Origin: Cliona cf. orientalis
Lineage: Eukaryota; Porifera; Demospongiae; Clionaida; Clionaidae
Length of the DNA stretch: 64,000 bases
NCBI GenBank assembly: GCA_963930775.1
Contig: OZ005697.1
Location: forward strand, 3,246,292 to 3,310,291
Reading direction: 5' to 3'
Positions 5,440 through 34,100 of this stretch are shown here, one piece after another (position 1 is the first letter of the stretch; each line of letters starts with the position of its first letter). Under the pieces are notes generated by a model. It made no database searches. It was not told the origin of the DNA and saw only the letters and a program-made list of their open reading frames with translations. The position numbers and the translations under genes were made by a program.

Positions 5440-5633
5440 CCTTCAGGGACACTTAACTTCCAAGCCAGCACCACGATCACCAAGCCGCGCCCACAAATTA
5501 TGTGGGCACACCCACCGCACCTTTGTCGGAGGCGGGGCGGCGCCGAATTGGCGCCGTTGAAGCGCGGCCCGCATTGAATTATCGAAGGGGCAAAGCTAGC
5601 TCAGCAATTTTAATACAGTAATCACCTTCCATT
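5440..5633 (+). promoter_or_regulatory. GC-rich 5' flank of gene 1, possible promoter
   Basis: This stretch is much richer in G, C and CpG than its surroundings, with two GGCGCC sites five bases apart near 5540-5556. No TATA box is evident. An in-frame TAA at 5619-5621 lies five codons before the gene 1 ATG. Assignment as promoter is inference from position and composition. Confidence 0.3.
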
Positions 5634-6815
5634 ATGGCTGAGCCTTCAATCACTGCAGACTACGTGTGTAACGTGTGCTTGTCGGCGAATCCTTCGATAA
5701 GAGATCTCATCGATGTCGGCTGCTTCAAGCCAGGCGCCCACGCAAAGGCACCGAGGGTCCCCGTGCGATGGAACCACGGCTCCAGGCGAATGGAGAGGGT
5801 CAGAACCTCGATGGAGCCGTCAAGTGATACCTACCTCGGATCTTTGTCCCTTTCCAAGCCACCGGATAATCGAATCAATATTCGGCCGATGCCCCGCGTG
5901 AGTGTACCTCACGGGGGAAAGAGATTCATCATGTGTGATTTGGGCTGGAGGTGTGGTGGGGACAAGTGTACGTTTGCTCACAGCATGGAAGAGAGGGAGG
6001 CCTGGAATGAAGCACTGCTCAGACAACAGTCGGCGGCCATGACGGCTGCTACTGCCCCACCGGACAGGAGGGTCAGCTTCGATGAGAGAATTGGTGGTAA
6101 GTACATGTATTATTAAACATAATCATGTGTTTGGTGGTGATACATGTACATTGCGGCAGCTGTTTAAATTTACTACAAAACCTCTAATTAGTGTAAACAC
6201 TCTTACAGTGTAATGTGCATTAAACGAGGTATTAATAAGATACACTGTATACATACTTAAGCTTTGTTGTAAAAGTTCCGCACGATAATAATTATTTGTA
6301 TTTGCGTAATAATATGTATGCTTGAGCCTTGTCCAATTTTTAGGGAAAGACACATGTAATTCAGTAAAAAGGTGTACATGTATATTGTAGATAATTCATG
6401 AAGATGTACTTCTGTATGTACGTAAGTGTATTTTCCCCATTATTACCCAGCCCCCCTCTACTCTCAAACTGGTCGCCAGGATACTGTAGTCACTCAGCCG
6501 TCGTACACAGCTCCTTCGTACCACCAGAATGATGACTCAGCATTCTACGAAGCCACCCAGTACCACCATGCCCACCCCCATGCTCACCACCATCCCTCTA
6601 GTGGACCACCCGGAGTGACAGCCATTCCCACACCAGGTCCACTCTATGACATGGCAGCTGTCTCCCACAGTGCCCACCACCAGCATCGCCATGGCAACCC
6701 CGTGCCTCATGTGGTCGACCACCATGGAGCTACTGCTAGCACACCAGGTCCTATGTGGGCTTCTACGTCTGCGTCTTACAGTCATCCTCTACCAGGTGGA
6801 AGCCAAAATTACTAC

Positions 6816-6846
<31 letters not shown>

Positions 6847-7010
6847 AGCTGTACCACCATCAACAGCAGCAGCCACAGCCACTGTCGGAAGTTTACAGCC
6901 ACGGCCATCAACACTATCAGCCGGTAAATGTATGATATCACTATCCACTGATTGAGGGTACAATGTACATGTACATATATGTATGCACATAATTATGTAG
7001 AAAGAGGGTA

Positions 7011-7097
<87 letters not shown>

Positions 7098-8058
7098 GAA
7101 AGTTTAATATTGGAGACTACAAACATGCAGTACATGTACTGGCAAGCACGATAGACACATAAAAAATTCCCTCACATAAAAAATGCTGATGTGACTAACC
7201 ACGTTTACACAATCTTGATTATCTCTTGTAGATACAGGCTCGTCCTTCTGTGCTGGGTCATCCTCTGAATACAAATCATTCACAGATATGGCATAGCCAC
7301 ACCCACAGCCACGCTCATCCTCCTATTGGTTCACGAAGGCAGCGCTACCCAACCCATTCCGGTATCCCAGAATCCCAGATCAGCAATGAGTTCCTCTCCT
7401 CTCCATTGGCTAATCTGCTACCTGGTCTGGGCAGTCAGCACCCCAGCGTCTCCAGGGTACAATCAGCACCCACCAGTGCTACTGCACAGGTAAGCTACAT
7501 GTGTACATGTAATTCTTGCTAGTTAGTATTGGGTGTGCTACACTGTATATTATGACACAAATGAGCACCTCTGCTAAATCAACTTCGCTGGGCCAAAACT
7601 ATCCTCTTGTACATCTAAAGTGTTTCAGATTCATGTACTGAGGGTGGATTAAACTTACATGTGTAAGACCGGCTTTTTATACTTTCATGTGTATTTGTGT
7701 TGGTTGTTTACACTATGATTAATAATTACTTATTTGAAAAATATGAATCATTCCAGTCATTAATGAATATCTAATTCCAGTTACAACTTCCAGTAACCAA
7801 TGAATTACTGCGGCATGGACATCCTATAATATTAATGTAGTTCGACCCTGAGTAAATATGTATTATGTACATGTAATTGTTATCCAAGTTTGAAGATGAC
7901 TGATAGTGGTGTCATTGTTGAGCATCCATGTGCACATTGTTTATATTTTTGTATGTGTAGTCCAGGAATGTACTTTTGCTCTCCATGAGGATGTAAGCTG
8001 TGTACAAATGCACACTCAAACCTCTCTTTTCTCCCTCTCTCTCCCCCCGTCTCTCCCT

Positions 8059-8119
<61 letters not shown>

Positions 8120-8468
8120 ACACACAGACACCATCATTACCTGAGGATCCCTGGCCCTCTCTTGGTAGTCCCACCACCGCCCCAAGGGGCTTCCCCTTGG
8201 GCAGCTCACAGCTTCAACCACAGTACTCCATGGCTGCTGTAGCTCCCTCTCCCAACCCCCCGTCCCAAGGTCACCAGCTTAGCACACAAACTGAGACATC
8301 ACAGCCAGCTCAGCAGCAAATCACTCCCTCCCCACACCTACATGTACCCTCATCCAGGTATGTATTACGTGCGTGAACATCTGTATTGTGGTTATGCATG
8401 TAAGTGCCTATGGTGTACGTACATCTGCATGTGATGAACACATGCATATCATGTGCATAAGAGAAGGT

Positions 8469-8517
<49 letters not shown>

Positions 8518-11500
8518 AGGGAGGGAGGGAGGGATAGAGAGAGAAAGAAAAAGAGAGGGAGGGAGGGAGTGTATAAATGAGGGAGAAGAAAATTTAATAT
8601 TATTTGCTTGCATTTGTGTGTACACACATTGTAAAGTAATCACCCTCTGTCATTCAGGCCTCTGGCTCACAGTGATCTTGAGAAGCAGCAGGTGTCAGAG
8701 TCTTCAGTGGCCAGTTCTGTCGTTCAGGCAAAGAGCTATGGCCAGTATAAACCAGGAAATATTATCTATGAGTTGCTATCTGCTAGCAACTATAAAAATA
8801 AATTTCAGGAGCTACTTAAATGCGAAGAGAGCACACACAAGAGCATCCTGGAAAACAGGTAAACAATATGTAACGTGTATTGCCTTACGGTGGCTAGATG
8901 ACATGCCCTTAATGTAAAAAAATGTAATTTCTCCAGCTGAATAAAAATTCCTAATTGCATGTTGTTATAATAATGTACATGTACATATGTGCTGTATTAA
9001 GCCATGCAATACACATGTATACATGCATGCATGCTCATGGCTTTATCAGGGTACCCTTGAGGTTGATTTTTCCTCCCTAAAACTTAGAGAATACGGTGTA
9101 CATTGTACATGTACATGCTGATCTCCCCCTCCTGAAGAACCAACAATTGATGTTCATATAAATTGGTAGTTGACCTCTGTTCATCATTGGCCTACTTTAT
9201 GATGATCCAATCCCTTCCCATAGCCGGCAAATTGCCTATAAAAACTTTTGTTGCTAAACCACTACCAGCAAATGTACATGTACAATGTCATATACATGTA
9301 TGTATTAATCCCTCTAATTTGTATTATGCATGCATGTACTTTCCCTGTAGGTGTAATGGAGAGTATCAGTTAGTCCTTCATCAGTCGGGCCTCAAGCGAC
9401 CTCCCTGGATGACTCGAGAGTCAGACTTCCGACATGTTCGATACGGCTACATTGCCCTAAACGGTGACCAGATTGCTTACGCTGTGCAGGCAGCACAGGA
9501 TAAAGAGGGTGTGACCCTCACCTACGACGGGAATACGATATGCACGGCAGATATTCTCTCGGAGAATTACTCGCACATAGAGGAAAAGCTTTATATAGGA
9601 TTTGATCGAGATGCTGTGACTAAATTAAACCATTCCGAGTGCCCAGTTAAACCCGGTCCGAGCGACTTTAATGTTCACGTCAGCTTTAAACTAAAGCACT
9701 CTTATTTTAATAATCTTAAGCGGTCTTTAGACAGACTTCATCCGGATATCATTCAGCGGCTGACACCCCACTACCAGAGTTTTCAGTGCCACCAGCCTAA
9801 CCTACACATGGGTGCTACCCATCCCATGTATAAACCGTATGAAAAGCTATGCTCTCCCGATCAGCTAAAGGCTTTAAAAACCATTACCCTCTCTCCTTCC
9901 AGCGGCCCTCCCGTTCTCATAGCTGGACCCTTCGGAACAGGTAAGACCCGAGTCCTTGCTGTAGCTGTGCAGTTCCTTTTTGAGCAACCTACCTCCTCCT
10001 TCGTCCGAGTCTTAGTCTGCACCCAACAGAGGATGTCCGCCGACAACTTTCTCGAAACGTTCCTCAACTTACAACAGATTAGGAACGTTGGCTTTGCCGA
10101 TGCTTTCTTGCTCCGAGACTATGGCTTTCACACCCCAAAGCTTAAAAAGTATTACAGAAATGTCCAGAGTATCCAGCATCAACTTCTCCGCCACCCACAC
10201 CCTCGCACGCTCATCGTCACCACCTGCCTCACCGCACCTCGTCTCGCTTCTTTCTTGCAGCGAGACTTCTTCACTCACATCCTTATCGATGAAGGAGCTC
10301 AGATGAGGGAGCCAGAGGCTGTTGCACCACTCTGCCTTGCTAACAGTAACACTAAGATTGTCATCGCTGGAGACCATCATCAGGTACATGTACATCAAAT
10401 TAATTTTTATCTTCTACTATAATACATGTACATACATGTATACCAATCCTAAACCTAAGAGCAAACCATCCCATTGCCTGCTCAGTTTAACCTACATTTT
10501 ACATTTACATGTACATGTAATCCTTGCAAAAGGCAGAGCCACTAGGCAGCTGTCCACCCTTGAGAACTACATATAGTATGTATAGTATTGTCATTGTTGG
10601 GAAACGGGTCGTGTAGCTTAGACCCTCTTGTGCACCACGATACCCACTTATTGGTATACCTACATGTATACAGTGTATGTACATGCGTAGCTAGCATAAC
10701 TGAGCACTTAGGGTAATAGTGTACAACAATATGTTTTGATAGTACGTATGTGCTTACTTTAAGTACATGTATTTATATGGTTACGTGCGTTGTAGCTTGT
10801 CGTGTGCATAGTATGAACACCGAACAATTAAGGCACAAACCATACGTCGTTGTGAAATCACTCTATTGACATAGTAGCTATAAATATGCATTATAGCACT
10901 CATGACCATCTACATTGTCATAGGTTGGTCCAGCGATGCTAGTTCTTGGTTCCAAGGCTCGAGACAACGGTCTGGACAAATCCCTCCTGGAGAGACTGCT
11001 GCTCCACTACCAAGGCATGCAGGGGGACGTAGCCAGCAACCATCACGTCACGTTAGTCACCAACTATCGCTGCCATCCCGACATTCTTGAGCTATCCGGC
11101 AACCTCTTTTATGAAACACCACTGAAGCCTCCAGACGACAAAGCCCCGCCCAAGCTCCACCCAGAGTACTCCACCTCCTTCGTGTTTGTGTGCTCCAGCT
11201 ACGGTGAGAAGGTAGAGGAGACGAACAGGAACACAAACGAAGAGGAAGCCATCGTGATCTTGGAGAAGCTGAGGGAGTTGAGTGAGAATTGGCCGTACAG
11301 AGAGTGGGGGGATAGGGACCTAATCAAGGCCTGCATCATGAGCCCTAGTAGAAGCCAGGTAGGTATAGAGATACTATTCATGCTTTTACATGTACATGTA
11401 CATGTAGATGTAGCTTTTTATAGGCTATACATGTATCACATGCACAGTCCATGAGCATGGTTTATGCCACAAACTTGCAGCGTACTAGTTAGCCATTAAT

Positions 11501-14500
11501 TCATCCTGGTAGGATGTGTAAAGCACGTATGGAACTTTCAGTATAAATCTGTCAAGTGAAATCTGTCTTTGATATGTGAATGAAAATGCTTTGATGTGGC
11601 CACAGGCCTTGCACAAACTATGCACCCCATCATTTGAACTTTGCTTGAGGAATATGCATGTGCTACCTGCTGTATGCGTGGTACAGCTACACAGTATGGT
11701 TAATATATAAATATTCCTCCCTCTAGTTGACTGTGATTAGCAAGTTAATTGAGGATAGACGAAGGGGCTACTTCAGACTCAGGTCCATAAGGAGACTGCC
11801 TACATACGATATACAGGGTAAGAAATATCAACATGTCCATTAGAGTATATTGTACTGAGATTTAAGCAGGCACTGTGGGTCCTGTAGGCTTGGGCATGGC
11901 CGGCTCCTGAAAAATGATTGACTGATTTCTGACAATTAAGACCTTATTCTCCAAAGTAAGGGTCTCCCCAGAAAATTTTGAAAATTTCATACATACATGT
12001 AATATTATACGTTCCAGGACCACTGATTTTGTGATCTCCTATATAACTACATGTACATGTATAGCTAGCTAGCCGGCTACCCGAGTACATGTACATTCTA
12101 TAGCATGCATGTTGTTCTCATTCACGGTTGCGTTGTAATCAGCAATTAATTTAGCACCTTTGTTCCATATGAGTTACTCTATTCTGCACTGATTATGCGT
12201 TTATGGTAAAGCAGGGGCGGATACAGGGGGGGGGGGTGCTTGGGGTGCTCAAGCACCCCCCCCCCCCCCCCAGCCAAGATAACAATGTCATACAGGCCTC
12301 TATAGACATAGCTAGCTCTAGCACGCCCCTTCTAGTCAAAAAACCTTGATCTGACATACATTTACATGTAGCTACAAAATCTGATTGATAAAACCTATCT
12401 GTAAAAACTCGAGTTCCACTGACTCCTCCATGTTTTCTGGTTGTTGCCTCGTTTCGAGGCAATTAAGTGGGTATGGTTTCGCAAAAAGGGGCGTGGTCAA
12501 TTTTTATTGCTGATACGCCTGTAGCTAGCTGTTACCATGATATGGCTGCCTTTGATAGCATTGTTAGTGCCTTCTGGGATGGCTGACCAGTTCCAGAAAC
12601 CCCCCTGGAGCCGCTACTATTGGGGTTGGTAACTTGACTATAAATTATAAGGAGAACACCCCTTGAATATTTAAAGTATTATCAACCACTGTCTTATAAT
12701 TACATGTACATGTACATTGTACAGGAAGGGAATTCAGATTTCTACTGTTGAGTACGTCAGAGCCTACGACAGACGATGGATACATTACCAACCCGACAAA
12801 GAGCTTCTGTGATCGATTCGTCTTCAACACGGCCATCACTCGAGCCCAGTCGCTGATAGTGAGCGTCGGGAACCCATTTCTCCTCCTGGAGGTGGAGAAA
12901 CTCATGATCATGAGGTATGGGGAGAAGGGGAAATGCTGGAGCAACTACCTAGACTACTGCCTCAGGAATAAGACCATTTCATTCAGCGATTCGCAGCTAT
13001 CGAGAACGAAGCAGAAGAAGATTCTATCCAAGGTTCGAGAGATCATCAAGGAGCGATTGTCACGAGATTATGCCAGCGAGCCAATGACGCCCGCACCAGC
13101 TGACAGAAACGTGTTCTCGAATGCAGACGAGTTCCCACCACTCCCGCAAGCAGCTGGTGCTCCTCAAGCCCCACCCCCAGCCACACTCACAAAAGATCCG
13201 CCTCCTACTAGGGCAATTCCTACGTACAACAAAGCTGCACAAGCTCCACCCACAACAAGACCACCTCCTCAACAGCGTGAAGCACTACCTCAACCAACTG
13301 GTGGCAACCCTCCTGCCAAGAGACAACCTCCACAACAGCATAGTACCGCAACTCCACCATCTCCAACTATCCAGTGGCCAGCTCAGCGTAAAAATCCACA
13401 GGAGATACAACTGAGACCACAGAGTAAAAATCCGCAGGAGATACAACTGAGACCACAGAGGGTGGTGGCTAGTGGTGGGGGTGGTGGTAGTGGGCAACAA
13501 CTAAAGCAGGTTCCCAGGAGTGCTCAGCAACAACAGAGACAGTTACCGAGTTCACCAAAGTCAGCTCAACAACCTGTAGCTGCAGCTCGATCAGAGGCAT
13601 GGCAGTCAAGGCCAGTAGGTGGTCATCCACGTGCACTCGGACAAATGCCTCAGCAGCAGCAGCAACCCCGCTCATCCATCGCTCAACAGCCACGCTCACC
13701 AGTGGGGCATCAGCCACGCTCGCCAGTGGGGCAACAGCCACGCTCACCTGTCGCTCAACAGCCACGTTCACCTATCGCTCAGCACGCACGTCCCCCCGGA
13801 AACCGACAACCACATGTACGTGCACAACCACAGTTTACTCATCAGCCTCACCCACAAGCAGTGAATGGTAGAGCGAATGGTAGACTATCAAGGAAGCCTG
13901 AAGCTCCTATGCTTGGTGGGCGTGGTGTTAATGGCAGGAAGCCTGCGAATAAGCCTTCTAAGCTTTCACTAGCGTCACACACTACCTGGGCAGACCAGCT
14001 GCCCGAACTGCCTCCAGGGGCCATCCAATCGCCAGCGGAATTTCCACCACTAGGAGCACCAGCTACTGCTGCTGGGAAAAGGCAGCCACAGCATGTACAA
14101 CCACACCAGGGGAAAAGGAGAGAGAGGCCACAGATACCATCGAATAGCATCCGGGATCTCTCTACAAGGCAGACAAAGAGAACAGAGGAAATGACATTCA
14201 TCGAAGGTACGTGTAAATGAATAACTACATGGATATGTACTTGATTGAGTGCAATAACACATCTTCACCCTTGTTCACTTCACACATATTATGATACAGA
14301 TAAGCCAGCTCCTCAAGCACCTACAAATGAGGTCGTATCAGGAACTGATTCTGAATCAGAGGTAATTATATTCTTCTTTAATAACGCTTACATGTAGTGA
14401 TATATGTTGTGTGCCCTAATTAATGTTTGTTTTATATTTGTAGTCAAAAGAAGAGGCTAATGCTAAAAGTGCACTAATAGTTCACAGGTATTGCAAGTTT

Positions 14501-17500
14501 GTATCTTACACGCATGCAGGTTTAGCGTGGTACTGCTTGTACATGTGTGTGGTCAAGAGCAGATGTGGAATTCATACAATTGAAAATTTTGTCCATAATA
14601 ATATTATAAGACTAATTCTTTAGGTTTGAGGAGGAGTTTACAGTAAGAGAGGTCCTAGGCCAGGGTGGATTTGGTGTGGTATTCCATGTGAAGTCGAAGT
14701 TTGATCATGGAGACTATGCACTCAAGCTGACAAAATTACCTGCAGAGTAAGCACACTGTAATTGCCTCTGGACTGTATCTACATAATATCCATGTAGCAG
14801 GAATTGTTTGAGGGCTCATCTTCTTACACATGTAACTTTATCATACACAGCAAAACGGAGCAGTCTAAGGTGATGAGGGAGGTCCGTGCTCTGGCTAAAC
14901 TGGAGAACCATCAACACGTTGTTCGCTACAACACCTCCTGGAAGGAGAGGGCTCCCTCAGACTGGAAGACCAGGAACTACTGGACAAAACTCAGGGATAG
15001 CAGCACCATGTGAGCATACATGTACATGCAGTATATAGTACATCATTGATCAATATTATCACTGGGCCGGAAATCATTGTACATGTACATGCTCTAACTG
15101 GTAAGGGTCATCAAGTAAGAAAATTTAATAGGCTATGGCTCACAATATGCTAAATGAAGACCAAAAGCACAAATCTATACTGAAGATCAAATAGAGCATT
15201 ATAGTTACATGTACGTGTATGTACATATCATATAATCATAGTAACTCTTCATCAGATGAAACCAATGTCTACCACTGACATACTAGCTACTACATATACA
15301 TGTACATAATAGTTATCTGCCAGTAATTGGGGTGCATGAGATGCATGGTCGAATGCACCGCAATTACTGGCAGATAACTATTAGTAGTTGACCTCTGTTC
15401 ATCATTGGCCTACTTTATGATGACCCAACCCCTTTCCATAGCCGGCAAATTGCCTATAAAAACTTTGGTTGCTAGGCAACTTCCAACAAATAGTAATACA
15501 TTTAGCTTTATCATACCCTGCTGTATGGTGCGTGCAGACATGATGCAGAGTACAAGCTCTGGATGCCACTTGCATGTACAGTGTACATGACATTGTAGTT
15601 GCATAATGTTTACTTAGTGAGGCTTTATAAAGGGAAATACCCTGGGACCTCCCCCATTTTTGATGAAATTCCTTAGGTGTTTCACAGTGCAATGTGCTAT
15701 ATCTTTCCCCCTAGTTCAATGTCATCTCGGTCTCCAGTGCCAGTAGGGCAGCCCAGGCCAGCTGTTGACTCCTCCTCCCACACCTCCCCCAGCTCAGCCG
15801 ACACTCCCAGTGACAGCACTGTACAGTCAGTGGGGGCAGTCAATGCTGAAACTAGTGATAGAGACTCTTCATTCACAGTGGAATTCAGGGACAGTCAAAG
15901 GTAATATATCACATGCAGATACACATGTAGCATGTGATTTTCCTTCTTATTACAGATAGCTATATAGGTACATGTACAATGTACATGTATACCATACATG
16001 ATAAATTTCGTTTTGAATAATTACATATGATATTGTATTAATTTTTTTATACATGTACATGTAGTGCAGATTGCATAAGTATACATGTGCATGTACATGT
16101 ATATTATACATGTATAATAGTGCCGATGATACTTATGAGCTCATACTACATGAATACATTCTATTGTGGCAGTTTTATTATTATGAATTTTATCATAGCC
16201 ATGGGGAAGAGGAGGAGAGCAGTCGGGCGGAACAGATTAAGCTAATCAAACCGCGCATACCACCAGCTAAAGCTGAAGGAGATCTGCTGACTCAGCTGTT
16301 GGATCCACCCATGGTGCTGATGATCCAGACAGAGCTCTGTGAGAAGAAGACACTTAAAAGCTGGCTCTCAGATCACATCAACGACAGGAAGAGGAGAACT
16401 GTTGTCAACTTCTTTGAACAGGTACATTTACTTACTAGTGGTGATGAAAATCATCTGTGCGGGGCGAGCCTTCGCAAAGTCACAAGATTTCTCACAGGCA
16501 TGCATGCGCACATTGGGTTGGTAAGCTTACCCCAATAGCTAGGCCTGAGAAGCTACCATGACAGTGGAAGTATCACAGATTGCTAGTGTAGTAGTAGCTA
16601 TAGTCCAATAATGTTGATCACCTATGCTATATTTAGTAGTCTACATGACATAATCATGAGTCCAAGTACCTGTAGCCAGGCCCTGAGAGGATAAGCCTCC
16701 ATGCAGTCATCTTCATGCTCAGGAAAGTGGAGTCTACCAGTGATGTTAATCGTGGACCTGAGCCTTGCCAGAGCGGTACAGCACTCACCTTTCCTTGCCT
16801 ACACTCGAGTTGTCTCTCAGATAGATGGTGCAGTGCAGGCGTATGCGCACGCGCATGACGACCATTACCTTACACGTTCAAAATTTAACTCTCTCCTCAC
16901 TGAAATGATCACCCCACAAACATCTTTTATATATAATATACATATACATATAAAACCGCTTCCTGTACCTCGTGTATTCGGGGCTCGCTCAGGCTCGCCC
17001 CAAATTATGAAAGAGTTCCATAACAATACACTTGGTACATGTATAATGTATGGGGGCTAAATTTATCAATCATAATACATACATGTAGGACTTAAACCTT
17101 ACAGATTGGTGATATACACAATATAATTACATGTATCAAGAGCATGCTTTAGTGTTCAGGGTGGTAAAAAGGACTTACAGTGTATTGCTGTCAAGATATC
17201 GCATTTGTTGAACATAATTCATGCAACATCATGACGTAATACATGTACATGTCTAGATTCTGGATGCTCTCTGTTTCATCCACCAACCTCGCGAAAGGAT
17301 CAGGTTCGTTCATCGAGACCTCAAGCCATCAAACATCTTCTTTGCTCGTGGAAGGGAAGAGTCCCTTAAGATTGGTGACTTTGGTCTTGTCAAAGGAAAT
17401 GCTCTCATCGAACCCACAGGTACATGACATTGTAATACATGTATGAATGTGCTTACATGTACACATACAGTGTATGTGTATTTATGAGCACTCATGAATA

Positions 17501-18926
17501 ATTGTTACTTGTGATCTGTACTGTACATTGTAGGTATATTACCGTATCCTCCCGAAAATACATGTAAGCCCCCTTCGAAAATAAGCCCCCTCCCCTCTTT
17601 GACCTTCAAGTTCTTGCACAGGTATGTTTGCCTCGATTATAAGCCCCCCTCCCACCAAGTAGATAGACTGCACATAATATACACGCGCGCGAGCACGTAC
17701 GTACGTACGTACATAACCCCGCCCTTCAATTGACTACGAGTACAAAGATGGTGCTGGCTTTTAGAAAAGCCTGTTTTGAAGTCATTCTGTTATGATGGCA
17801 CTTCTAGCTTGGCGAAGACACTTACGAGCCGGTCAAGATGCTTTTACTTTCCTCTAAAGACGTAGGCCCTACACACACGCAACAACAAGTCCTTTTCCTA
17901 CCGCCGATCCTCGTGTTGCCGCTCTTTTGGAGAAAAGATAAGCAAACTCTGGATATTTCCCGCGGTACGTGACCAACGATGGTGGCTAAGGGGGGCTTAT
18001 ATTCGAGGGAAAGTGCATATTCGAAAATAAGCCCCCTCCCCAGTCTAGGTCATGTCTACTGCTGAAAAAGGGGGGGCTTATTTTCGGGAGGATACGGTAT
18101 AATGTTTGGTAGCTACATGTAAATAGAATCCTGCATTCTCATTATTTTATGTGAATGTACACATGTACTTCTGCAGCTCAAAATCCCTTCCTGGATGTTT
18201 CCGCTCGGCAGCAGCAGTCACCCAGCTCTATAGCAGGGACACTGCTCTACATGAGTCCCGAGCAGCGAGAGGGGAGGGGCTGTGACCACAAAGCTGATAT
18301 CTATGCTCTGGGAGTCATCTTCTTTGAGCTGAATTATCCATTCACCACTGATAGTGAACGATTTAAGGTATATTATTATAGCTGATAACAATGCTATGAT
18401 TTGATCCCTATAGACTGCAGGAGTTGGGAGTTAATTCATTATTAGCTGTCAATTGCAAGCCAACCAAGTTGTGTATTGTAGGTGTAGGTACATGTACGTA
18501 TTTTTATGCAGTGGGTTAAGGGAATCCCATGCCCTCCCCCCATCCAAAAATGTATCATAATCATTGATTCTCGGCAAATACTACCAGGAATTTACATAAC
18601 AATGACATTGTATCATGATGTAAAACCCTACGGCTTGATATATACATGCACAATGAATAGTGTGAATGTTATTGTCATATGTACAATGCCATAATAATAC
18701 ACATTAGGTTCTATCACAGCTGAGAGAAGGCAAACTCCCCAAGGGATTTCGTGACAAGCTTCCCAATGAGGTGACCCTCATCATCCAGCTATTGATGGAT
18801 CACAATCCCATCAAGAGGCCTAGTGCTGAGGAGATCAAGACAGACAAGCACAATGAGCTGAAGAGGCTGAGGAAGAAAGCAGGGAAGAAATCAAAGCCTA
18901 CTCTCATACCTGTACTCAAGAGCTAG
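5634..18926 (+). CDS. Gene 1: CCCH zinc finger - HELZ2-like RNA helicase - eIF2-alpha kinase fusion
   Basis: Eighteen exons with matching phases encode 2,011 residues: 5634-6096, 6451-6923, 7232-7489, 8128-8357, 8658-8858, 9351-10383, 10924-11358, 11727-11817, 12725-14206, 14300-14361, 14444-14487, 14624-14746, 14851-15009, 15715-15900, 16199-16421, 17257-17419, 18177-18367, 18708-18926. Start ATG 5634 follows an in-frame TAA. Order: CCCH finger (C101, C107, C112, H116); His/Gln-rich linker (155-470); SF1 helicase (about 540-1150) with Walker A GPFGTGKT (734-741) and DEGAQ (855-859); Pro/Gln linker (1190-1540); kinase (1591-1990) with HRDLKPSN (1840-1847) and DFG (1862-1864). Helicase relatives HELZ/HELZ2 bind RNA; kinase relatives PKR, PERK and GCN2 phosphorylate eIF2-alpha Ser51. 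Cytosolic RNA-triggered translational control is my inference. No stop separates helicase from kinase, and gene 2 repeats the arrangement. Confidence 0.9.
5931..5984 (+). other. CCCH zinc-finger segment of gene 1
   Basis: Residues 101-116 fit C-x5-C-x4-C-x3-H, followed by SMEEREAW, the 'AHS-x-EE-x-x-x-W' tail typical of the HELZ-type CCCH finger that binds RNA. A further cysteine cluster (C12, C15, C30) near the N-terminus could form a second metal site, but it matches no family I can name. Confidence 0.8.
7013..7094. repeat. (AG)n microsatellite in gene 1 intron 2
   Basis: About 82 bases of uninterrupted AG dinucleotides, 140 bp before exon 3. Part of the AG/CT/AG set around exons 3 and 4. 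Confidence 0.95.
8064..8116. repeat. (CT)n microsatellite serving as polypyrimidine tract
   Basis: About 26 CT units end 11 bp before the exon 4 acceptor (cacacag at 8127), so the microsatellite is the polypyrimidine tract of this intron. Its RNA is complementary to the (AG)n runs at 7013-7094 and 8469-8512. Confidence 0.95.
8469..8532. repeat. (AG)n followed by (GGGA)n microsatellite
   Basis: About 22 AG units, then five GGGA-type units, in gene 1 intron 4, 110 bp after exon 4. Confidence 0.95.
9351..13060 (+). other. SF1 helicase-coding exons of gene 1
   Basis: Exons 6-9 carry the Upf1-like helicase motifs in order: GPFGTGKTR (motif I), [13 protein letters not shown] (Ia), [14 protein letters not shown] (II), [13 protein letters not shown] (III), [10 protein letters not shown] (IV), [17 protein letters not shown] (V) and [18 protein letters not shown] (VI), then [11 protein letters not shown], which resembles the segment after motif VI in HELZ2. 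Motif III is GDHHQ where gene 2 keeps the commoner GDPQQ. The preceding exon 5 has an LLxxEE-type helix ([19 protein letters not shown]), also found before the helicase core in MOV10/HELZ proteins. Confidence 0.9.
12212..12617. mobile_element. hAT-like MITE
   Basis: Left end caggggcggatacagggg, right end inverted tagcggctccagggggg, resembling the CAGNGGCGGATCCAGG ends of many hAT-derived MITEs. It lies in gene 1 intron 8, immediately upstream of exon 9, and carries G and C runs. Confidence 0.55.
13390..13461 (+). repeat. In-frame 36-bp duplication in gene 1 exon 9
   Basis: Two adjacent copies encode [11 protein letters not shown] separated by S, within the Pro/Gln-rich linker. The nucleotide copies are nearly identical, implying a recent slippage or unequal exchange event that kept the frame. 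Confidence 0.85.
13665..13788 (+). repeat. In-frame 24-bp minisatellite coding PRSPVxQQ units
   Basis: Five consecutive units encode [32 protein letters not shown] and QQPRSPIA. Each has an SP dipeptide or its variant, a possible proline-directed phosphosite (inference). It sits in the disordered linker between helicase and kinase. Two FPPL motifs (DEFPPL, AEFPPL) flank the linker. Confidence 0.9.
14624..18926 (+). other. eIF2-alpha-kinase-type catalytic domain of gene 1
   Basis: Exons 12-18 carry all key kinase residues: glycine loop [14 protein letters not shown] with the ATP-binding Lys, [19 protein letters not shown] (helix C), a Ser-rich insert in exon 14 as in EIF2AK kinases, [41 protein letters not shown], and [18 protein letters not shown]. 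The YMSPEQ and DIY-LG-I-FEL-YPF strings are hallmarks of PKR/PERK/HRI/GCN2 rather than of general Ser/Thr kinases. The Thr of [10 protein letters not shown] matches the activating Thr of the PKR loop. A basic tail of about 25 residues ([11 protein letters not shown]) closes the protein. Confidence 0.92.
17540..18099. mobile_element. MITE with TACCGTATCCTCCCGAAAAT ends
   Basis: Left end taccgtatcctcccgaaaa; right end inverted taccgtatcctcccgaaaat, continuing into 'aagccccc' on both sides. About 560 bp, noncoding, in gene 1 intron 16 between the DFG exon and the MSPEQ exon. Confidence 0.85.
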
Positions 18927-19150
18927 CTACTTTAAATGTTATTAATATAATATTATTATGTACTATTGTAGACCTATAAATTATTCGTTGTTATTAAAAC
19001 AAATTTTATTATTATTATGTTGCAGATACTGTACAAGTGCAAAGGTGCATGCAGCATGCTTACATACGATGCAGCTCGTTCTCGCCCCCAGGCCACTCCC
19101 CTGGGGACGTGGCTACCTGATCGGCCCATTTATAGATCTGAGTGGGAATC

Positions 19151-22100
19151 ATGGCGGGCTCACTATGGCAACCTCCAACACAGCTCGACAATGGTAAGGC
19201 CACTCAAATCTTACCGAAGCAGGGTATCTCGTTTGCGGCAGCACTTCAACAAGGGATCGCGCCTGGCCATGATCAACAGCGCACCCCTGGCACCCTCCCT
19301 TTCTACCAGCACCCACCCCGAATTCGGCAGAATTCCCAAAGAACACCGCGGAATCAAAATCGTTCATCCAGCAGCTCTAATAAACGTTCTAGTTCAACGT
19401 CAAGGTCAGGAAGGTCGCAACAGCGAGGGCAACAGTCGACAAGAAGACAAGGACAGCAGCAGCGGCGGGAGTCCCGCCAATACACGGGCGGTGAAGCAAA
19501 CTCGGCCGCGAGGAGGATATCCGCTAAGAAATCTATACTACAGCATACACACTCTGAGTGGAGAGTAAATGTTGAAGTGAGTGCTGCACTAGAGCAACCG
19601 ACGCAGTCCCGAACTGAACAATCAATGCCTGTGCACACAAATTCAAAGCAAGCTCGCCCATTTCCAGTTAGATCAGCTACCGTGCAACCATTATGTACGA
19701 AACCATCTCAGTCGATGCCTATGAACTCAGAACTAGCTACTAATTATGTGCCATTAATAGCACCATCTATGGGCTCAAAACCAGCTATTGTACCATCATC
19801 CGTAGAGAAGCCAAACCAAAGCACTGTTCAGCTGCCCATAAATTCTAGTGTGAGTCATAATAATAATATGCGCTCAATATCAAGATCCGATCTGTCTGAA
19901 AGGCAACAATCGGGAAAAAGACAAGGACAGCAGCAGCAGCAGGAGTCCTGCCAGTCCACGGGCGATCAAGCAAACTTGGATAGGAAGACATCTGCTGAAA
20001 AGTCCATGCCACAGCATGCACACCCTGAGAGAGCAAATGATGTTGAAATGAGTGCCACACTTCAACAGCTGACACAGTCTCGGACTGAACTATCAATTCC
20101 AATGCATTCAGATTCAAAGCCAGCCCACCCAATGGTGCCTACCGTGCCTAAGAACTCAAAACCAGCTACCAGTTATGCAGTGCCATTAGCACCATCCATA
20201 GGCTCAACACCCGTGGCACTGAAACCAAATCCAAGCGCTATGCAATTGCCTATCAATTCAAAATCACCTACTGTACCGCCCCCTTCCAGACAAACGACTG
20301 TGCCATCAAAACCGATCATTACCATACCACGCTCTACAGCAAACACTAAACAGACTATAGCTACTACACAACCTCCCATGTCAAACTCAAAAGAGGTTAC
20401 TGTGCCAGTGACTACGGAATCAAGGTTCGTATCGCTCTTTGCAGCCAATACAAAGGAGGCTACTATGCAATCTCCCTTGGTAAAACCAAAACTACCGCCT
20501 TCCGTAGCAATCTCAAAACCAGCTACAGTACCACAGCATACTATTATTTCAAAACCAGCTACCATACCATCACATGGTGGCAACCTGTCCGTACACCATG
20601 GTAAATCGTCACCTTTTTATCAATCAACACATGCATCACAAAGACCAACACGTGAAACAGCACTTTCAGCCGACTACCGAAAGAAGTACAAGTCACTTTT
20701 GGAGCTTGAACAGGAGGAGCATAGAAAAAGATTGGCTGAAAGGTTAGTTGAGAGTAGACAATACAAAATCAATTTTGGAGCTCATTTTAAAGATTATGGG
20801 GATAACTTACAAATGAAGAGTGCCCACTCCCAGATCTCCAAGGCTAGATCCTTACTGCCATGTGTATGGCAAGAAGCAAAATCTGCATGTCTTACATCAA
20901 GGGACACATTCCACCAAACGTATACTTACACCAAGCCAAACTTTAAGGCTTAGTTGATATTAGCTTGATCATATATACATCAATCAGAATCCTATCAGCA
21001 ACTTACCGTGATGACTCCACCATTTAATTTATACATGGTTTGCTACAAGGTAAGCGCCCAGTGCAGCGGGTAAGTGCCCAGAGTAGTCAAGGAATGATAG
21101 AGTATCGATACCCATGGGCGCTAGGCCTGGGCCAAATATTCGTGGATGATTTTTTTAATAATAGGCAGCTTCTTGAAGAAATTGAATAATGGGCTTTTCA
21201 ACTGCACAAGCAAGTAGTGCACATACACAATGTGCATGTGCTTAAAATTGAAAACTTTTTGTCATGTGACATGAGCCTATGATCAAATGGAGGAAGCACT
21301 TGAGCATTTAGAAAACTTTGTGTCATGTGACATAGCCTATGATCAAATGGAGGAAGCACTTGAGCAAACAGCTCAGACAACTAGTTGTCGATCACTTTTG
21401 GGAGTGCTAAATGTTTGTAATGAATAGTAAACATTGTGTAACTGATTACTTCCTGTATTATGTCATGGACTGTATAAATAGTGTGCATGTGCATGTGTGT
21501 ATTGTTCAGTTCTCCCTAGTATTTCCCCTTGTTTAATACCTACAACTACTGTAAGAGAGCGCAGGCAGGGAGCAGTCGTTACAGGTAAGGGCCTGTCCGG
21601 GGTCCTGCGACCACTCGCAGACGTGAGTGCATGAGTCTGCCAACCAGTGTGACTTGGGGATCGGGATCGAGCGTGATGTTACAAGTTCCTTTAGCCTCGG
21701 AACTTACAAGAAAGAGAAAATTTGCATGTAATCCAGCACTTGTTGGCCAAAATGTACATGTATATTCTCATGTTTCATTTGCATTTTGTCAGCTTTTTTT
21801 AAGAATAATAGGTAACTTTCTCTTATCATTGAATAATGGGATAGATAAGTAAAGAATAATTATTTGAATAATGGGCAAATATAAAAGAATATTTGGTCCA
21901 GGCCTAATGGGCGCTTACTGGTGCCCTGGACACTACAGTATTATTTTTTGACGGTATTGTTTTTGGGTTAGGCCACTTAATATATCTTAATATATCTTCT
22001 GAGTGCTTTGATATAAGTTGCAAAAGTATGGATGACAGGGTCAAAAAAGAATAGTACGGAAGATGCATTGCTATGCAACATGACTAGTTAAGGTAGTATT

Positions 22101-28100: not shown

Positions 28101-31100
28101 GAAATGATGGCCACGAATAACGTTATCATGCAAGAAGATAGACAAATCGCCAGCACTCGTCATCTTGAGCGGCAACTGTAAACGCTAAAGTGCTCGATCG
28201 ATCGAGTGCTAGCGGGCCCGGGCCTCGCATCCATCACGTGCCCAAACGTTTGTGGGCGTGGTTATGTGCCATATAAGCGCATATCCTTTATTAAGCGCAT
28301 ACTGTCATACCGTTTACCGCTATAAGCGCATGCGCTTATTAACCAGGGTCTACGGTATGCCGGGTAGCTAGCTGCTGCCAACAGTAAAAGTTAGAACTTG
28401 GTTTTCTCCCTAAGCGGAAAAGTTTTATCACTACTTGGGCCGCCTAAAGCAGCCTTCTTTGTCATCCTATTCATTGTCATTGAAAATTGTTATGAACGCA
28501 AGTTAATGAGGGGCGTGGCAAAGAATTTTGCGCACTTCCCATCCACTTAATCAGAAGTTGTGAGCAAACCATGTAAGATGGCATTGATAAATTACACTAA
28601 GTGCAATAAAAAAGAACAGAAACAAATATAAAAAAAAATTGAATAAAATTGAAGAATGAAGTAGGGATGGCAGGATCAAAAAGTACACGAACAAGAGATA
28701 ATCGCATCTACTATACATCCCTACGCTTGCTTTTTGAGGGGTGCAAAAATAGCCAGTAATAATGGGATTGAATAAAAAATTGATAAACCCGAACCATCGT
28801 GACAACTAGGGAACAACCTGCACGAATGTCTCCCACATACCGCACTCAACAAACATGTCAACCATGATTAACAGGTGCACAATAGTAGAGAAAAGCAAGC
28901 GTAGGCATGTATAGTAGATGCGATTATCTCTTGTTTGTGTACTTTTTGATCCTGCCATCCGTACTTCATTCTTCAATTTTATTCAATTGTTTTTATACTT
29001 GTAATAATATATAAGTGGACATGCAAAACTGCTCAGAGCACCTGCACCCATAGTTTTGCACCATGGTGCTTTTTGAAGAAGCTGGCGAATGTCCCCAAGG
29101 AGGCTACTAGCTGTGAGGGAAGCTGCATGACTTGATGTCAGCACCGTAGTGCGGATTTCGATACTATAACAGTACTAGACTAAGGGTTGTTGCTGCTGTC
29201 AGTGTGAGTCATTGTATTGTCGTTGCCTGCTTATGCAGCTGGATGCCATATTATGCAACACGCCAAGGGTTTTGTGCTCTAGAGAGCTCTAGTCTTCATG
29301 GTTATAAATTTTATGGTAGCCACCAATATGATTAACTTAAAGGGGCACGGTGCTACACAATGATTACCGTATTGTCTCTAATTTAACGGACATCTCTAAT
29401 TATCCGGACACCATTTCGAATTATTTTTTACCTCTAATTACACCGGACAGTCAATGAAGTTTGAGTTTTTGTTGTTCTAATTATCCGGACATTGTTGGAC
29501 AGCTCGCGCTAGCGTGGTACTGATCGAGCAAAATTTGCAATGGATAGCTACTTTTTTGGTGGTAATGAAGGAGGCGAGCTGTTCTCTTTCCCACCATGAA
29601 CAGGGAGCTCCAGGTACCGCCTCATTTTCTCAATCTCTGCAGCTGCTCGATCGCACGACCATTTGACCGAATGCGCATGTGCGAAAGCGTGTTCTAATTC
29701 ATCGGACACTTCGAACGCCGGCTATTTTCGTGTGCTCTAATTATAGCGGACATTGGCCAAAATAATTATTTTCTGGTGTCCGTTAAATTAGAGGTAATAC
29801 GGTATGTAATAATTGATACACAATCTGAAGCAGTTTCTTTTGTCGCTGAGCCTTTCTGCAAAGAATTTCCAATAAATAGCGAGCACAATAATATCACTAC
29901 ACACTAATAATATGGTATTCTAATATGCCTTTTTGTATCCAGTTGCGACGGTGAATGTATTTTGGAACTGTGTGATTCAGCGATCAAACCTGCTCCACTA
30001 TCAAGATTTGTCACATATGCTTGTATACGTGGGTTGCAAGACTTTAAAATTGCATATGCAACTCAGGCAGCAGAAATGGAAAAGAAAATTGGAGCTAAAA
30101 TCTACAAGAAAGGTGGTGTTCGGAGGGTGCATTGCAGGGCACACATTCTTCACATGAACTACTCTGAAATTGATACTGAACAAAAATTGTATATAGCATT
30201 TGATGAACATTGCAATCATTTTTTTCAAGCATATTTTGAGCCTGATATCAGAAGAAATAAATATATAAAGGTTGAAATTGAATTTCAATTAAAAACTCGT
30301 ATTTTGGAAATTTACGGAAATCTGTTGAGAATCTTCCTACAGAAGTTATCCCAAGGATTATACCCAGAAATCATCAGGCATTCTCACATGAAGTACCTAC
30401 AGTGGTGACTAATCATGAAATGGATCTTGATGCTGAGCAACAAATGGCACTTAATGCAATTCTTGTACCAGCTCATCAAAATAGCCTTCCCATCCTAATC
30501 AGTGGTCCCTTTGGAACAGGAAAAACTCGTATTATGGCCCTTGCAGCTCATATGCATTTTCAACGAGCTCACTCAGCTTGTATCTTAGTATGTACACAGC
30601 AGAGAGAGTCTGCTGACAATTTTATGCTTATGTATCGTGAAGTGGTATCAAAATCTGGCTCTGACGATGTTAATGTGACAAACATTATTCTTAGAGATTA
30701 TGGATATCGTAGAAGAGAGTTACAGAAATTTTATATTAAGCCAGAGGAATTATCAAGATGCCTCCGTAATTCTAAAGACAACATGCATATGCTTGTTGTC
30801 ACTACTTGCTTGACCGCTCACCACCTGGTGGACGAGAATATTAACTTCACCTGCATCTTTGTTGATGAAGGAGCACAAATGCGTGAACCAGAAGCAATTG
30901 CAGCTCTCAGAATGGCAAATAAAATGACTACTCTTGTAATTGCTGGTGATCCTCAACAGGTATAACCCCTAAAATAAGCTAAAATATAGCTGGAGAATTT
31001 GGTGGAGTTGGGCATTTTACAATCACCACATTAAAATTTCTTTACTCTCCTAAGTATGCAATAATTGCCCATTTGAAACTATATAACAAATTTAATCGTA

Positions 31101-34100
31101 TACCTCATTTTACAGGTTGGTCCTGCTATGCTCGTATTTGGTGAGGAAGCAAAGAAAGGTGGTCTGAACAAATCTCTGTTGGAAAGACTAGTTCTTGAGT
31201 ATAAAGAAATGGATAAAAATTTTGAATCACCAGTGTCTCAGAATTATCACATTACATTGGCAACTAATTATCGATGTCACGATGATATACGAAAACTCTC
31301 TGCTAGGCTTTTCTACCGTGAGATACCCCCAAAAAGTCCACTCAAACCCAATGACCAACCTGGTGCTTTTGGATTTCATGGATCACAGTCGTCAATTCAT
31401 TTTATGTGCTCAAGTATTATGGATAATGAGCAGCAAAGTGGTGTAGTAAATGAAGCAGAGGCAACAAGTGTTGTTAATTTGCTTGTGGAAATCTTGCAGT
31501 CCTGGCCCAGATATGGAGGAATCAAAGCAGGTGATTTTGATCCATGGCGTGTGTGTATCATGAGCAAAAGTCGAAGTCAGGTAAGTATTGATCTGACATA
31601 CATAGTAGAATACAGTGGAACCCCTCTATAACGGCCACCATTGGGGAATGAGGTAGTGGCCTTTATAGAGGGGTGGCCTTAACTCAGGGGTTTTTTCCAT
31701 AAATTGATAAAACAACAACACAACTTGAATTATGCAATAAAAATATTAAGTAGGATTAAAATATTCTTTAAGTGTGCTCTGCCTAGCAGAATTAAGGCTT
31801 GTACAGTGAAGGAAGGTTAGCCTGTTTGCTGATGCTGCAATCCTCGTTGCCTCTTCTGAGTACCCTCTGCTGTCCAAGAAGGTTTGAACATCTTCCAATG
31901 ACGCTATTGCATCTTGAAACCTTGCTATCTTCGCAGGAGGCGGATCTGCATCAAACTCTTCCTCGGGATCACCTTGCTCAGCGTCTGCTGGAGATGACCC
32001 AAGTTCAGAAAAGAATTGATTCTCCCAGTCATCGTCATACTGTTGACAAGTGGGTAGATTATCCTCACCATTGATATACTCTTCCATTGAGCAGTTAGTA
32101 GTATCTGGCCCGAGTGAAATTTGATCAACAAGGTCATTCAATTCTTCTTGAGCCTCTACCTCGTCAAAAGGATCCTCGGTTTCATAAGCACGGCTAACCA
32201 CAGAGAAGCTGGATCCAGTAATGCCAGAATTTCTGAAACACTTCATAATAGTCTCTTCTTTAACAGATTCCCATGCTTCAGCTACCCACCTTATGGCTTT
32301 GAGTACATCTACAGACTTGACTATTTGCGAAGCAGTATCATTGGTTTCATCAATCTTTGAGAGAACAAAGCGCAGTAGGAGTCTCCTATAGTGAACTTTG
32401 AAATTTTGAATTATGCCTAAGTCAAGGGGTTGTATATGTGATGTTGTATTTGGGGGGAGGAATATAATTTTGATGTTTGAGTATTTTCCTTTTAGCTCAT
32501 GAGGGTGGCATCCAGCATTGTCCATTATCAGCACTACTGATCGAGAGCGTGAAGAGAGGCGACGATTCAGCTTAGTAAGGACCTCGTCCAATATTTCTCC
32601 ATTCATCCACGCATTAGCCTGGCTGTAGTAAGTCACTGGTAGCTTAGATACATTTATACCTTTAAAACATCTCGGTTTTTCTGCTTTCCAAATCACGATA
32701 GCAGATTCTTTTCCACCAGCAGCATTAGCAATTAAAGCAATTGTAAATCTCTGCTTAGCTTTTTTCCCGCCCTTGCACTGAGATCCCTTCTTTCCAAAAC
32801 CATACTCTGGAAGAGCACGCCAAAAACATCCAGTTTCATCTAGATTCCAAATATTTTCGGCGGAATACCCCACTAGAAGCTCAGGAATCCGTTCTTTCCA
32901 TGATGCTATAGTATCCCCAGATACATCACCTGACTCTCCATTAATTTTCATCTTGTGAATATCGTATCGCTTTTTCCATCGATCTAACCATCCGTTAGAT
33001 CCCTTGAATTTATCATTACCCAGTTGTTCAGCAATCTGCTTAGCTTTCTCGCACAACTGGGGTCCATCGGGATAGATATTATGAGTAGTAGCTAGCAAAT
33101 ACCAGTTGTGAAGGGATTCATTTATTTCAGCAAACTCGCACGTACGAGACCTTTTTCTTAACAGAACACAATCACTTGAAACATTTGATTCATACTGTTT
33201 AAGTAGGCTTTCTTTTTCGGACAGTATTGTGTTCACTTGTGTCTTGCCACATCCAAATTTCTCTGCTAGAGCCCTGCTGCCCAAACGGGTCTTCTCGGCC
33301 AAATCGATCAATTCACACTTCTTGGCCAAAGTGAGAGTATTCCTAGCCTTCTTTTTGGAAGACATGCTGCTTTTGCCGGGTATGTCAGGTAGCCCGCCTA
33401 GCCACGTGGTTCTTTTTAATAGTGCCCACCACGCTGCATAATCACTGACCTTCGCTCAGCCGGTGAGCTTTGACCGTGGGAGAAGTTTGAATTGAAAGGA
33501 TAATGGCTAGCCAGCCTATTGCAAGCACTGAGATCGACAATTTCAGTTTCGACTCCTTTATCAGAGGCTATCATGCCTATATGGAGCGGTGGGACCCGTG
33601 GGTTGGAGAAGTTTTGCCCTTGGAAAGAGAGCCAACTAATCCAGAGGACAAGTGTGCTGTGGCCGTCAAGAAATGTGGCAAAATTGTTGGATTCAACCTT
33701 GCTCCTGTTGCGTCAGCCTTTTTGAAGAGAGCTTCAAACAAAGGACTTGTTGAGGTGACTGGAAATCGTGTCAACCGTGGTGCTGGCTATGGCTTGGAAA
33801 TTCCATGCCAATTTTACGGATCTACATTATACATCGAGCGACTGAAAACTATAGTACATAAGCTAATCTCAGATGGCCTATTGTAAACTGTACTGACTGA
33901 TGATTATTAATAAAAAAAGTAGGTGGAGCTGGCCGTAGTATGAGATCATGCGCACTAATGATCGTTAAAGTGGGTAGAGCTGGCCGGTGACGACCTTTAC
34001 CTTGGCTAAAGTGGGTGGAGCTGGCCGTAGTGCGAGGTCAATACGTATTGGTGAGCATCATTTGGGGCCACAATACGTGGCCGTTGTACGGAGTAGAGGG

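Follow-up and report, generated by a model that had tools for sequence, protein, structure and literature searches.

Results

Exon Structure and Domain Content

A predicted gene in which an RNA helicase domain is followed, in one open frame, by a protein kinase domain lies on the forward strand of the stretch of DNA analyzed here, a window of 64,000 nt (C9:3246292-3310291) from a 216.8-Mb assembly. When the gene, which we call copy 1, was rebuilt from the raw sequence, 18 exons with matching phases were recovered between positions 5634 and 18926, all of the introns (17/17) had GT-AG borders, and the coding frame ran for 2,011 codons plus a stop with no internal stops. The start ATG at 5634 is the earliest in-frame ATG downstream of an upstream stop. 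The exon count, the phase agreement, and the open frame given in the preliminary description were thus confirmed.

Exon 1 (5634–6096) carries the start codon and is followed by a His/Gln/Pro-rich exon 2 (6451–6923) and by exons 3 (7232–7489) and 4 (8128–8357) of low complexity; the resulting low-complexity arm (aa 155–500) is rich in S, P, Q, and H. The helicase module begins in exon 5 (8658–8858), continues with motifs I–III in exon 6 (9351–10383; 18 motif residues) and with the start of RecA2 (TNYRCH) in exon 7 (10924–11358), passes through exon 8 (11727–11817), and reaches motifs V–VI in exon 9 (12725–14206), which also encodes most of a Pro/Gln-rich linker (to aa 1555). The linker, about 410 residues long and rich in P, Q, and A, is continued by an acidic stretch in exon 10 (14300–14361) and by exon 11 (14444–14487, with another possible 3′ end at 14538). 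The kinase glycine loop and the YALK lysine are encoded by exon 12 (14624–14746), the rest of the N-lobe by exon 13 (14851–15009), a Ser-rich kinase insert by exon 14 (15715–15900), and the end of the insert and start of the C-lobe by exon 15 (16199–16421). HRDLKPSN and DFG lie in exon 16 (17257–17419), the activation segment with YMSPEQ and the alpha-G motif PFTTDSER in exon 17 (18177–18367), and the kinase end and stop codon in exon 18 (18708–18926), with an ATTAAA hexamer at 18993.

The SF1 helicase and kinase motif sets claimed earlier could be placed along this frame, and the Pfam families AAA_11 (8e-16), AAA_12 (8e-19), and Pkinase (6e-38) all scored above their cut-offs; the gene model, the domains, and the catalytic residues are direct observations. 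A CCCH finger had also been proposed. The spacing C-x5-C-x4-C-x3-H is present at aa 101–116, whereas exon 1 gave no Pfam match at E values up to 5, so that the resemblance to the CCCH finger(s) of HELZ2 is one of spacing alone.

A Probable HELZ2-Type Helicase and a PERK-Type Kinase

The helicase motifs, picked by eye and then placed by coordinate, are motif I GPFGTGKT (aa 734), motif II DEGAQ (aa 855), motif III GDHHQ (aa 882), TNYRCH (aa 932), motif V QGREF (aa 1061), and a further motif of 11 residues at aa 1096. The best PDB match of the helicase half was UPF1 (5e-16), and the 16 PDB sequences passing 1e-3 were named UPF1/NAM7, DNA2, SMUBP-2, or 5′-3′ RNA helicase-like protein; copy 1 shares the SF1 core with UPF1, its closest solved helicase, but is distant from it. 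A scan of the genome for helicase exons gave 39 exon matches, which we read as 11 helicase loci. Two weak single matches lie beyond these loci (C7:6358924 and C8:1579465). The copy 1 helicase is homologous to two paralogs (C17 and C12) whose downstream frames both contain an RNB domain (4e-55, 8e-46), and one of these also matches OB_HELZ2 at 7e-6, a sub-threshold score (26.2 bits, where the cut-off is 29.3). Because these same-genome paralogs carry RNB, the helicase may be called HELZ2-like, an assignment that is supported indirectly. Copy 1 and HELZ2 have the UPF1-like SF1 helicase in common. HELZ2 also has an RNB domain and a second helicase, and Pfam listed neither of these, nor OB_HELZ2, in the full copy 1 protein at 1e-3. 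Copy 1 has a kinase in their place. At the C7 helicase, no kinase match better than E 0.2 was present in the 5.5 kb downstream.

The kinase motifs GQGGFG (aa 1603), YALK (aa 1622), HRDLKPSN (aa 1840), DFG (aa 1862), and YMSPEQ (aa 1900) are all in place. Among the best 19 PDB sequences, 17 were named PERK, GCN2, HRI, or PKR, and the other two (9bf3 and 1zxe) bear generic kinase names. The best E values were 8e-56 for PERK, 6e-41 for GCN2, 2e-39 for HRI, and 3e-30 for PKR; the kinase, first described as PKR/PERK-like, is thus of the eIF2alpha-kinase type as claimed, but nearer to PERK than to PKR. In the alignment with PERK, copy 1 retains the glycine loop, the YALK lysine, a stretch of 17 residues, and the alpha-G motif, where PFTTDSER aligns with PERK PFSTQMER; both SPE and the alpha-G Thr, which serves in eIF2alpha docking (PKR T487), are in place. 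PERK (EIF2AK3) and copy 1 also have a kinase insert and GT-LYMSPEQ in common. Judged by its motifs, the copy 1 kinase appears to be an eIF2alpha-type kinase of the PERK sort with a complete catalytic set.

A separate, canonical PERK gene lies on C12, with a signal peptide and luminal and membrane segments (judged by eye). The copy 1 kinase shares 49% of its residues with this local PERK over the part that could be aligned, and is 37% and 38% identical to the kinases of two further helicase–kinase loci, copies 2 and 3, described below. Two phase-0 C-lobe introns are common to the local PERK and the kinases of copies 1–3. On the other hand, the N-lobe of the local PERK is one uninterrupted exon, whereas copy 1 has introns both before and inside its N-lobe, and the phase-2 intron before the kinase is absent from the ordinary PERK gene. 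Weaker kinase matches in the genome were also seen: those on C5 and C1 resemble other kinase families by eye, and a simple motif scan of the one on C8 showed nothing.

One Gene or Two Neighbors?

Could the locus consist of two same-strand neighbor genes, a helicase gene ending near 14206–14220 and an eIF2alpha-kinase gene downstream, which were duplicated as a block? Several features of copy 1 allow for this. When exon 9 is extended into its intron, a stop appears after four codons, and an end of the gene by such read-through is possible, though not favored. Within the linker frame there is no Met from aa 1551 (exon 9) to aa 1640, past the glycine loop, but outside this frame there are two candidate ATG exons (14291 and 14327, donor 14361) from which splicing to the kinase would be in phase. 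A kinase-only product could therefore start at Met aa 1551 or at either of these ATG exons.

The splice signals speak against two genes. In a splice model that was trained on the other introns, with introns 9–11 held out, introns 9 (10.5/6.9) and 10 (7.3/5.4) scored within the range of the other introns, and intron 11 was weak (4.5/3.9, donor 4.5). The best in-frame path through the linker, with the exon-11 donor at 14538, summed to 24.6, a value equaled in 4 of 300 shuffles, of which 129 contained some linker path. With the donor at 14487 the sum is 24.1, and exon 11 may end at either position. The donor at 14487 would create an Arg codon across the junction (HR|FEEEF), at the position that the dimer-interface Arg takes in the eIF2alpha kinases; this position is R in the local PERK and K in copy 3.

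The gap of 417 bases that separates exon 9 from the kinase (14207–14623) is not GC-rich, with a GC content of 0.35 and a CpG o/e of 0.41, compared with 0.57 and 1.06 around the start of exon 1 (5500–5799), although CpG is a poor promoter sign here because the top CpG values of the window lie elsewhere. No AATAAA or ATTAAA hexamer was found in this gap, which is weak evidence, as the window carries about 1.2 per kb. Furthermore, a phase-2 intron precedes the kinase (before exon 12 in copy 1) at all three helicase–kinase loci, and this implies an upstream coding exon. That a HELZ2-like helicase is joined to an eIF2alpha-type kinase in a single polypeptide is thus well supported at the genomic level, and we regard one protein as likely. 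Two neighboring genes would be quite unlikely, also in the light of the related loci.

Related Loci in the Same Genome

A second helicase followed by a second kinase (copy 2) lies downstream in the window on the same strand. Its N-terminal exon spans 19154–20742 (end placed by eye), and its helicase 29943–31580 (exons 29943–30959 and 31116–31580), with a frame break near 30290 that is either real or an assembly error. Helicase motifs V–VI follow at 37858–38216, where the 3′ end is a candidate donor and the frame stays open to a stop at 38250; a motif scan of 31580–37857 found no counterpart of exon 8. The six kinase exons lie at 43838–43957, 45194–45334, 46141–46318, 46375–46528 (with a stretch of 11 residues), 50721–50905, and 52286–52525 (including the stop). 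Their phases (2,2,2,0,1,0) are those of copy 1, and exon 14 of copy 1 is missing. The copy 2 kinase has the glycine loop, Lys, HRD, and DFG and has lost the alpha-G Thr.

The interval between the copy 2 helicase and kinase is compatible with two genes, since the helicase frame stops at 38250 and the kinase is preceded by ten poly(A) hexamers and by 13 candidate ATG exons that splice in phase to it. At the DNA level, no homology was found between the copy 1 and copy 2 linkers (the top local score was 28, and 46 of 200 shuffles scored as high). An acidic SDSESE in the copy 2 candidate ATG exon at 40298 resembles the copy 1 linker, and the DNA comparison gives this likeness no support.

A third helicase and kinase pair (copy 3) lies on one strand of another chromosome, C2. 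Eight exons, starting with the counterpart of exon 8 and ending at the stop, provide 924 open codons that comprise motifs V–VI, a single linker exon, and the kinase. The phases of these exons (0,1,1,2,2,0,1,0) are identical to those of copy 1 exons 8, 9, 10, 12, 13, 16, 17, and 18; copy 3 has fewer linker and insert exons. Upstream of these codons, its helicase contains a frame-breaking insertion before the NFRCH motif. With Gln for Lys, HGN for HRD, and HFG for DFG, the copy 3 kinase is a pseudokinase, and its last exon continues into a RING-like finger, which falls under the cut-off (E 0.007), and a TRAF zinc finger (2.7e-11). A block duplication of two neighbors would likewise yield co-linear loci, but copy 3, on a different chromosome, has an open junction with a single linker exon and identical phases on either side, which strengthened the evidence for a joined gene.

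A fourth helicase copy, on C15, has no kinase, as might be expected of separate genes; however, its homology to copy 1 ends at window position 13629, inside the linker part of exon 9, so that it resembles a duplicate that was truncated. At the protein level, this copy and copy 1 are 95% identical in both exon 6 and exon 7 and 85% identical in exon 8 and the linker, and the DNA identity in the main aligned blocks is 77–86%. Over exons 5–9, the dN/dS between copy 1 and the C15 copy is 0.19 (dS 0.163, dN 0.032), which indicates that the helicase part, as distinct from the kinase, has been under purifying selection.

The same order and intron phases thus recur at two further loci, which confirms that the helicase–kinase arrangement is more than chance; the co-linearity of these paralogous loci was observed directly. 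The order, together with the shared phase-2 kinase intron at three loci, indicates that the joint architecture is old. Given the frame breaks in both other helicases, neither copy 2 nor copy 3 is an intact second example; they attest to the age of the arrangement but not to retention of the fused protein. Among the three helicase–kinase loci and the C15 copy, the only intact gene is copy 1. In an unrooted helicase tree (11 loci, 441 columns), the branch that parts C9_1, C15, C9_2, and C2 from the rest had 61% support, so that the tree does not prove a single fusion event, and monophyly of the kinase-side helicases was set aside as a proof. Outside this genome, a GTDB scan gave 13 pattern matches and an IMG/VR scan 2, none of which was confirmed as a relative, as expected for an animal gene.

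Is copy 1 then a fused gene in decay, with no conserved function? Of the four kinase-side helicase loci, three (C9 copy 2, C2, and C15) are damaged or truncated. Copy 1, however, is free of lesions over 2,011 codons and has its catalytic motifs in place, and its helicase exons show the constraint described above, a comparison for which the kinase part had no partner. We consider decay of the locus very improbable.

Discussion

The eIF2alpha kinases differ in their sensor modules, which respond to unfolded protein, uncharged tRNA, haem, or dsRNA, and both PERK and PKR are activated by ligand-driven dimerization. Could the helicase of copy 1 serve as such a sensor? PERK has a luminal sensor and a membrane segment, whereas Pfam listed no luminal domain in the full copy 1 protein, which has a helicase and a Pro/Gln-rich linker instead. 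Similarly, PKR (EIF2AK2) shares the eIF2alpha-kinase type with copy 1 but has dsRNA-binding domains, none of which Pfam listed in copy 1 at 1e-3; the RNA ligand of copy 1 is presumed.

The explanation that we favor, and consider somewhat more probable than its alternatives taken together, is that one gene encodes a 2,011-residue protein consisting of a low-complexity arm, a HELZ2-type helicase, a linker, and a PERK-sort kinase, in which the helicase, on abnormal RNA or ribonucleoprotein, brings kinases together and eIF2alpha is phosphorylated. We infer a single transcript, RNA as the ligand, dimerization as the switch, and eIF2alpha as the substrate. The helicase, with its low-complexity arms, would gather on aberrant RNA or ribonucleoprotein; this gathering would bring the kinase domains together, their dimerization acting as the switch; and the PERK-type kinase would then phosphorylate eIF2alpha, so that translation would slow. 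Such a mechanism is plausible for eIF2alpha; the antiviral role suggested in the preliminary description is putative.

It is also conceivable that the fusion is real and that its kinase no longer serves eIF2alpha, acting instead on RNA-decay or immune partners or on its own helicase, with eIF2alpha left to the ordinary PERK. The separate canonical PERK gene would permit such a shift, and the paralogous kinases have indeed drifted, copy 2 by the loss of the alpha-G Thr and copy 3 as a pseudokinase with RING-like and TRAF fingers. Copy 1, on the other hand, retains the C-lobe signature, including PFTTDSER, and nearly half of its aligned residues are those of the local PERK, which makes a change of substrate unlikely.

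HELZ2 is interferon-linked in vertebrates. If the favored mechanism is true, HELZ2 would be tied directly to translation control, in a new coupling of RNA sensing to a translation brake, and RNA-triggered translational arrest would have been invented separately outside vertebrates. More tentatively, and with more doubt than belief, we suggest an additional class of eIF2alpha kinase in animals, with a HELZ2-type RNA helicase as its built-in sensor, derived from one ancient fusion that was duplicated. In one descendant, catalysis would have been lost and RING-TRAF fingers acquired, so that a translation brake set off by RNA would have become a signaling scaffold of the ubiquitin or TRAF type with the same trigger.

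The architecture is new and is assembled from known families. No helicase–eIF2alpha-kinase fusion was described among the titles and abstract openings listed by the literature searches, in which few subscription papers or preprints were covered. According to PMC5025754, PKR is conserved in vertebrates only, and invertebrates have two eIF2alpha kinases. The domain organization of the EIF2AK family is described in PMC5851622, the text of which contains no mention of sponge, Amphimedon, Porifera, or Nematostella and uses the word helicase once, about the RWD domain. In sponges, PERK-annotated genes were reported in the LPS response of Halichondria panicea (PMC8242945), and two HELZ2-annotated helicase genes were expressed at lower levels in D. 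avara upon symbiont treatment (PMC11229196). The accessible portions of these four papers do not describe the fusion.

A separate look for silicatein gave no evidence of a sponge: at the cysteine peptidase loci L021, L022, and L025, the catalytic Cys is kept in the active-site matches, except in one unrelated reverse-strand match.

Related Loci and Linker Motifs

On chromosome C2 of the same genome, a helicase-linked pseudokinase (copy 3) occupies positions 6080-440 of locus L029 on the reverse strand. Beyond the kinase, its last exon also encodes TRAF zinc fingers (zf-TRAF, 2.7e-11) and a RING-like finger, the latter a sub-threshold match; the pseudokinase with these fingers represents a second unusual architecture within the helicase-kinase family of copy 1. 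A close copy of the helicase lies on chromosome C15 (6975500-6987902; loci L032, L034, L039 and L043), with 95% protein identity to copy 1 in exon 6. It breaks off within the linker, at the site equivalent to window position 13629, and no kinase was found downstream in the stretch fetched. HELZ2-like helicase genes with RNB domains, the latter within uninterrupted exons of more than 1,000 codons, are present on chromosomes C12 (L045) and C17 (L044). C12 also carries a canonical PERK gene (L009, reverse strand), in which a signal peptide, a luminal part and a membrane segment were recognized by eye along with the kinase.

The linker of copy 1 (exon 9) contains the EFPPL motif twice, at aa 1189-1204 and aa 1492-1507. 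The first (SNADEFPP) resembles a PAM2-like motif; Pfam returned no match at either site at E up to 5.

Two open frames on the reverse strand were assigned by eye, from resemblance. A 569-aa pogo/Tigger-type transposase-like frame (31746-33455) sits inside copy 2, the tandem locus downstream in the window, at the expected place of the exon-8 counterpart, and a frame resembling a tyrosine-recombinase-type domain (40572-41042) lies between the copy 2 helicase and its kinase.
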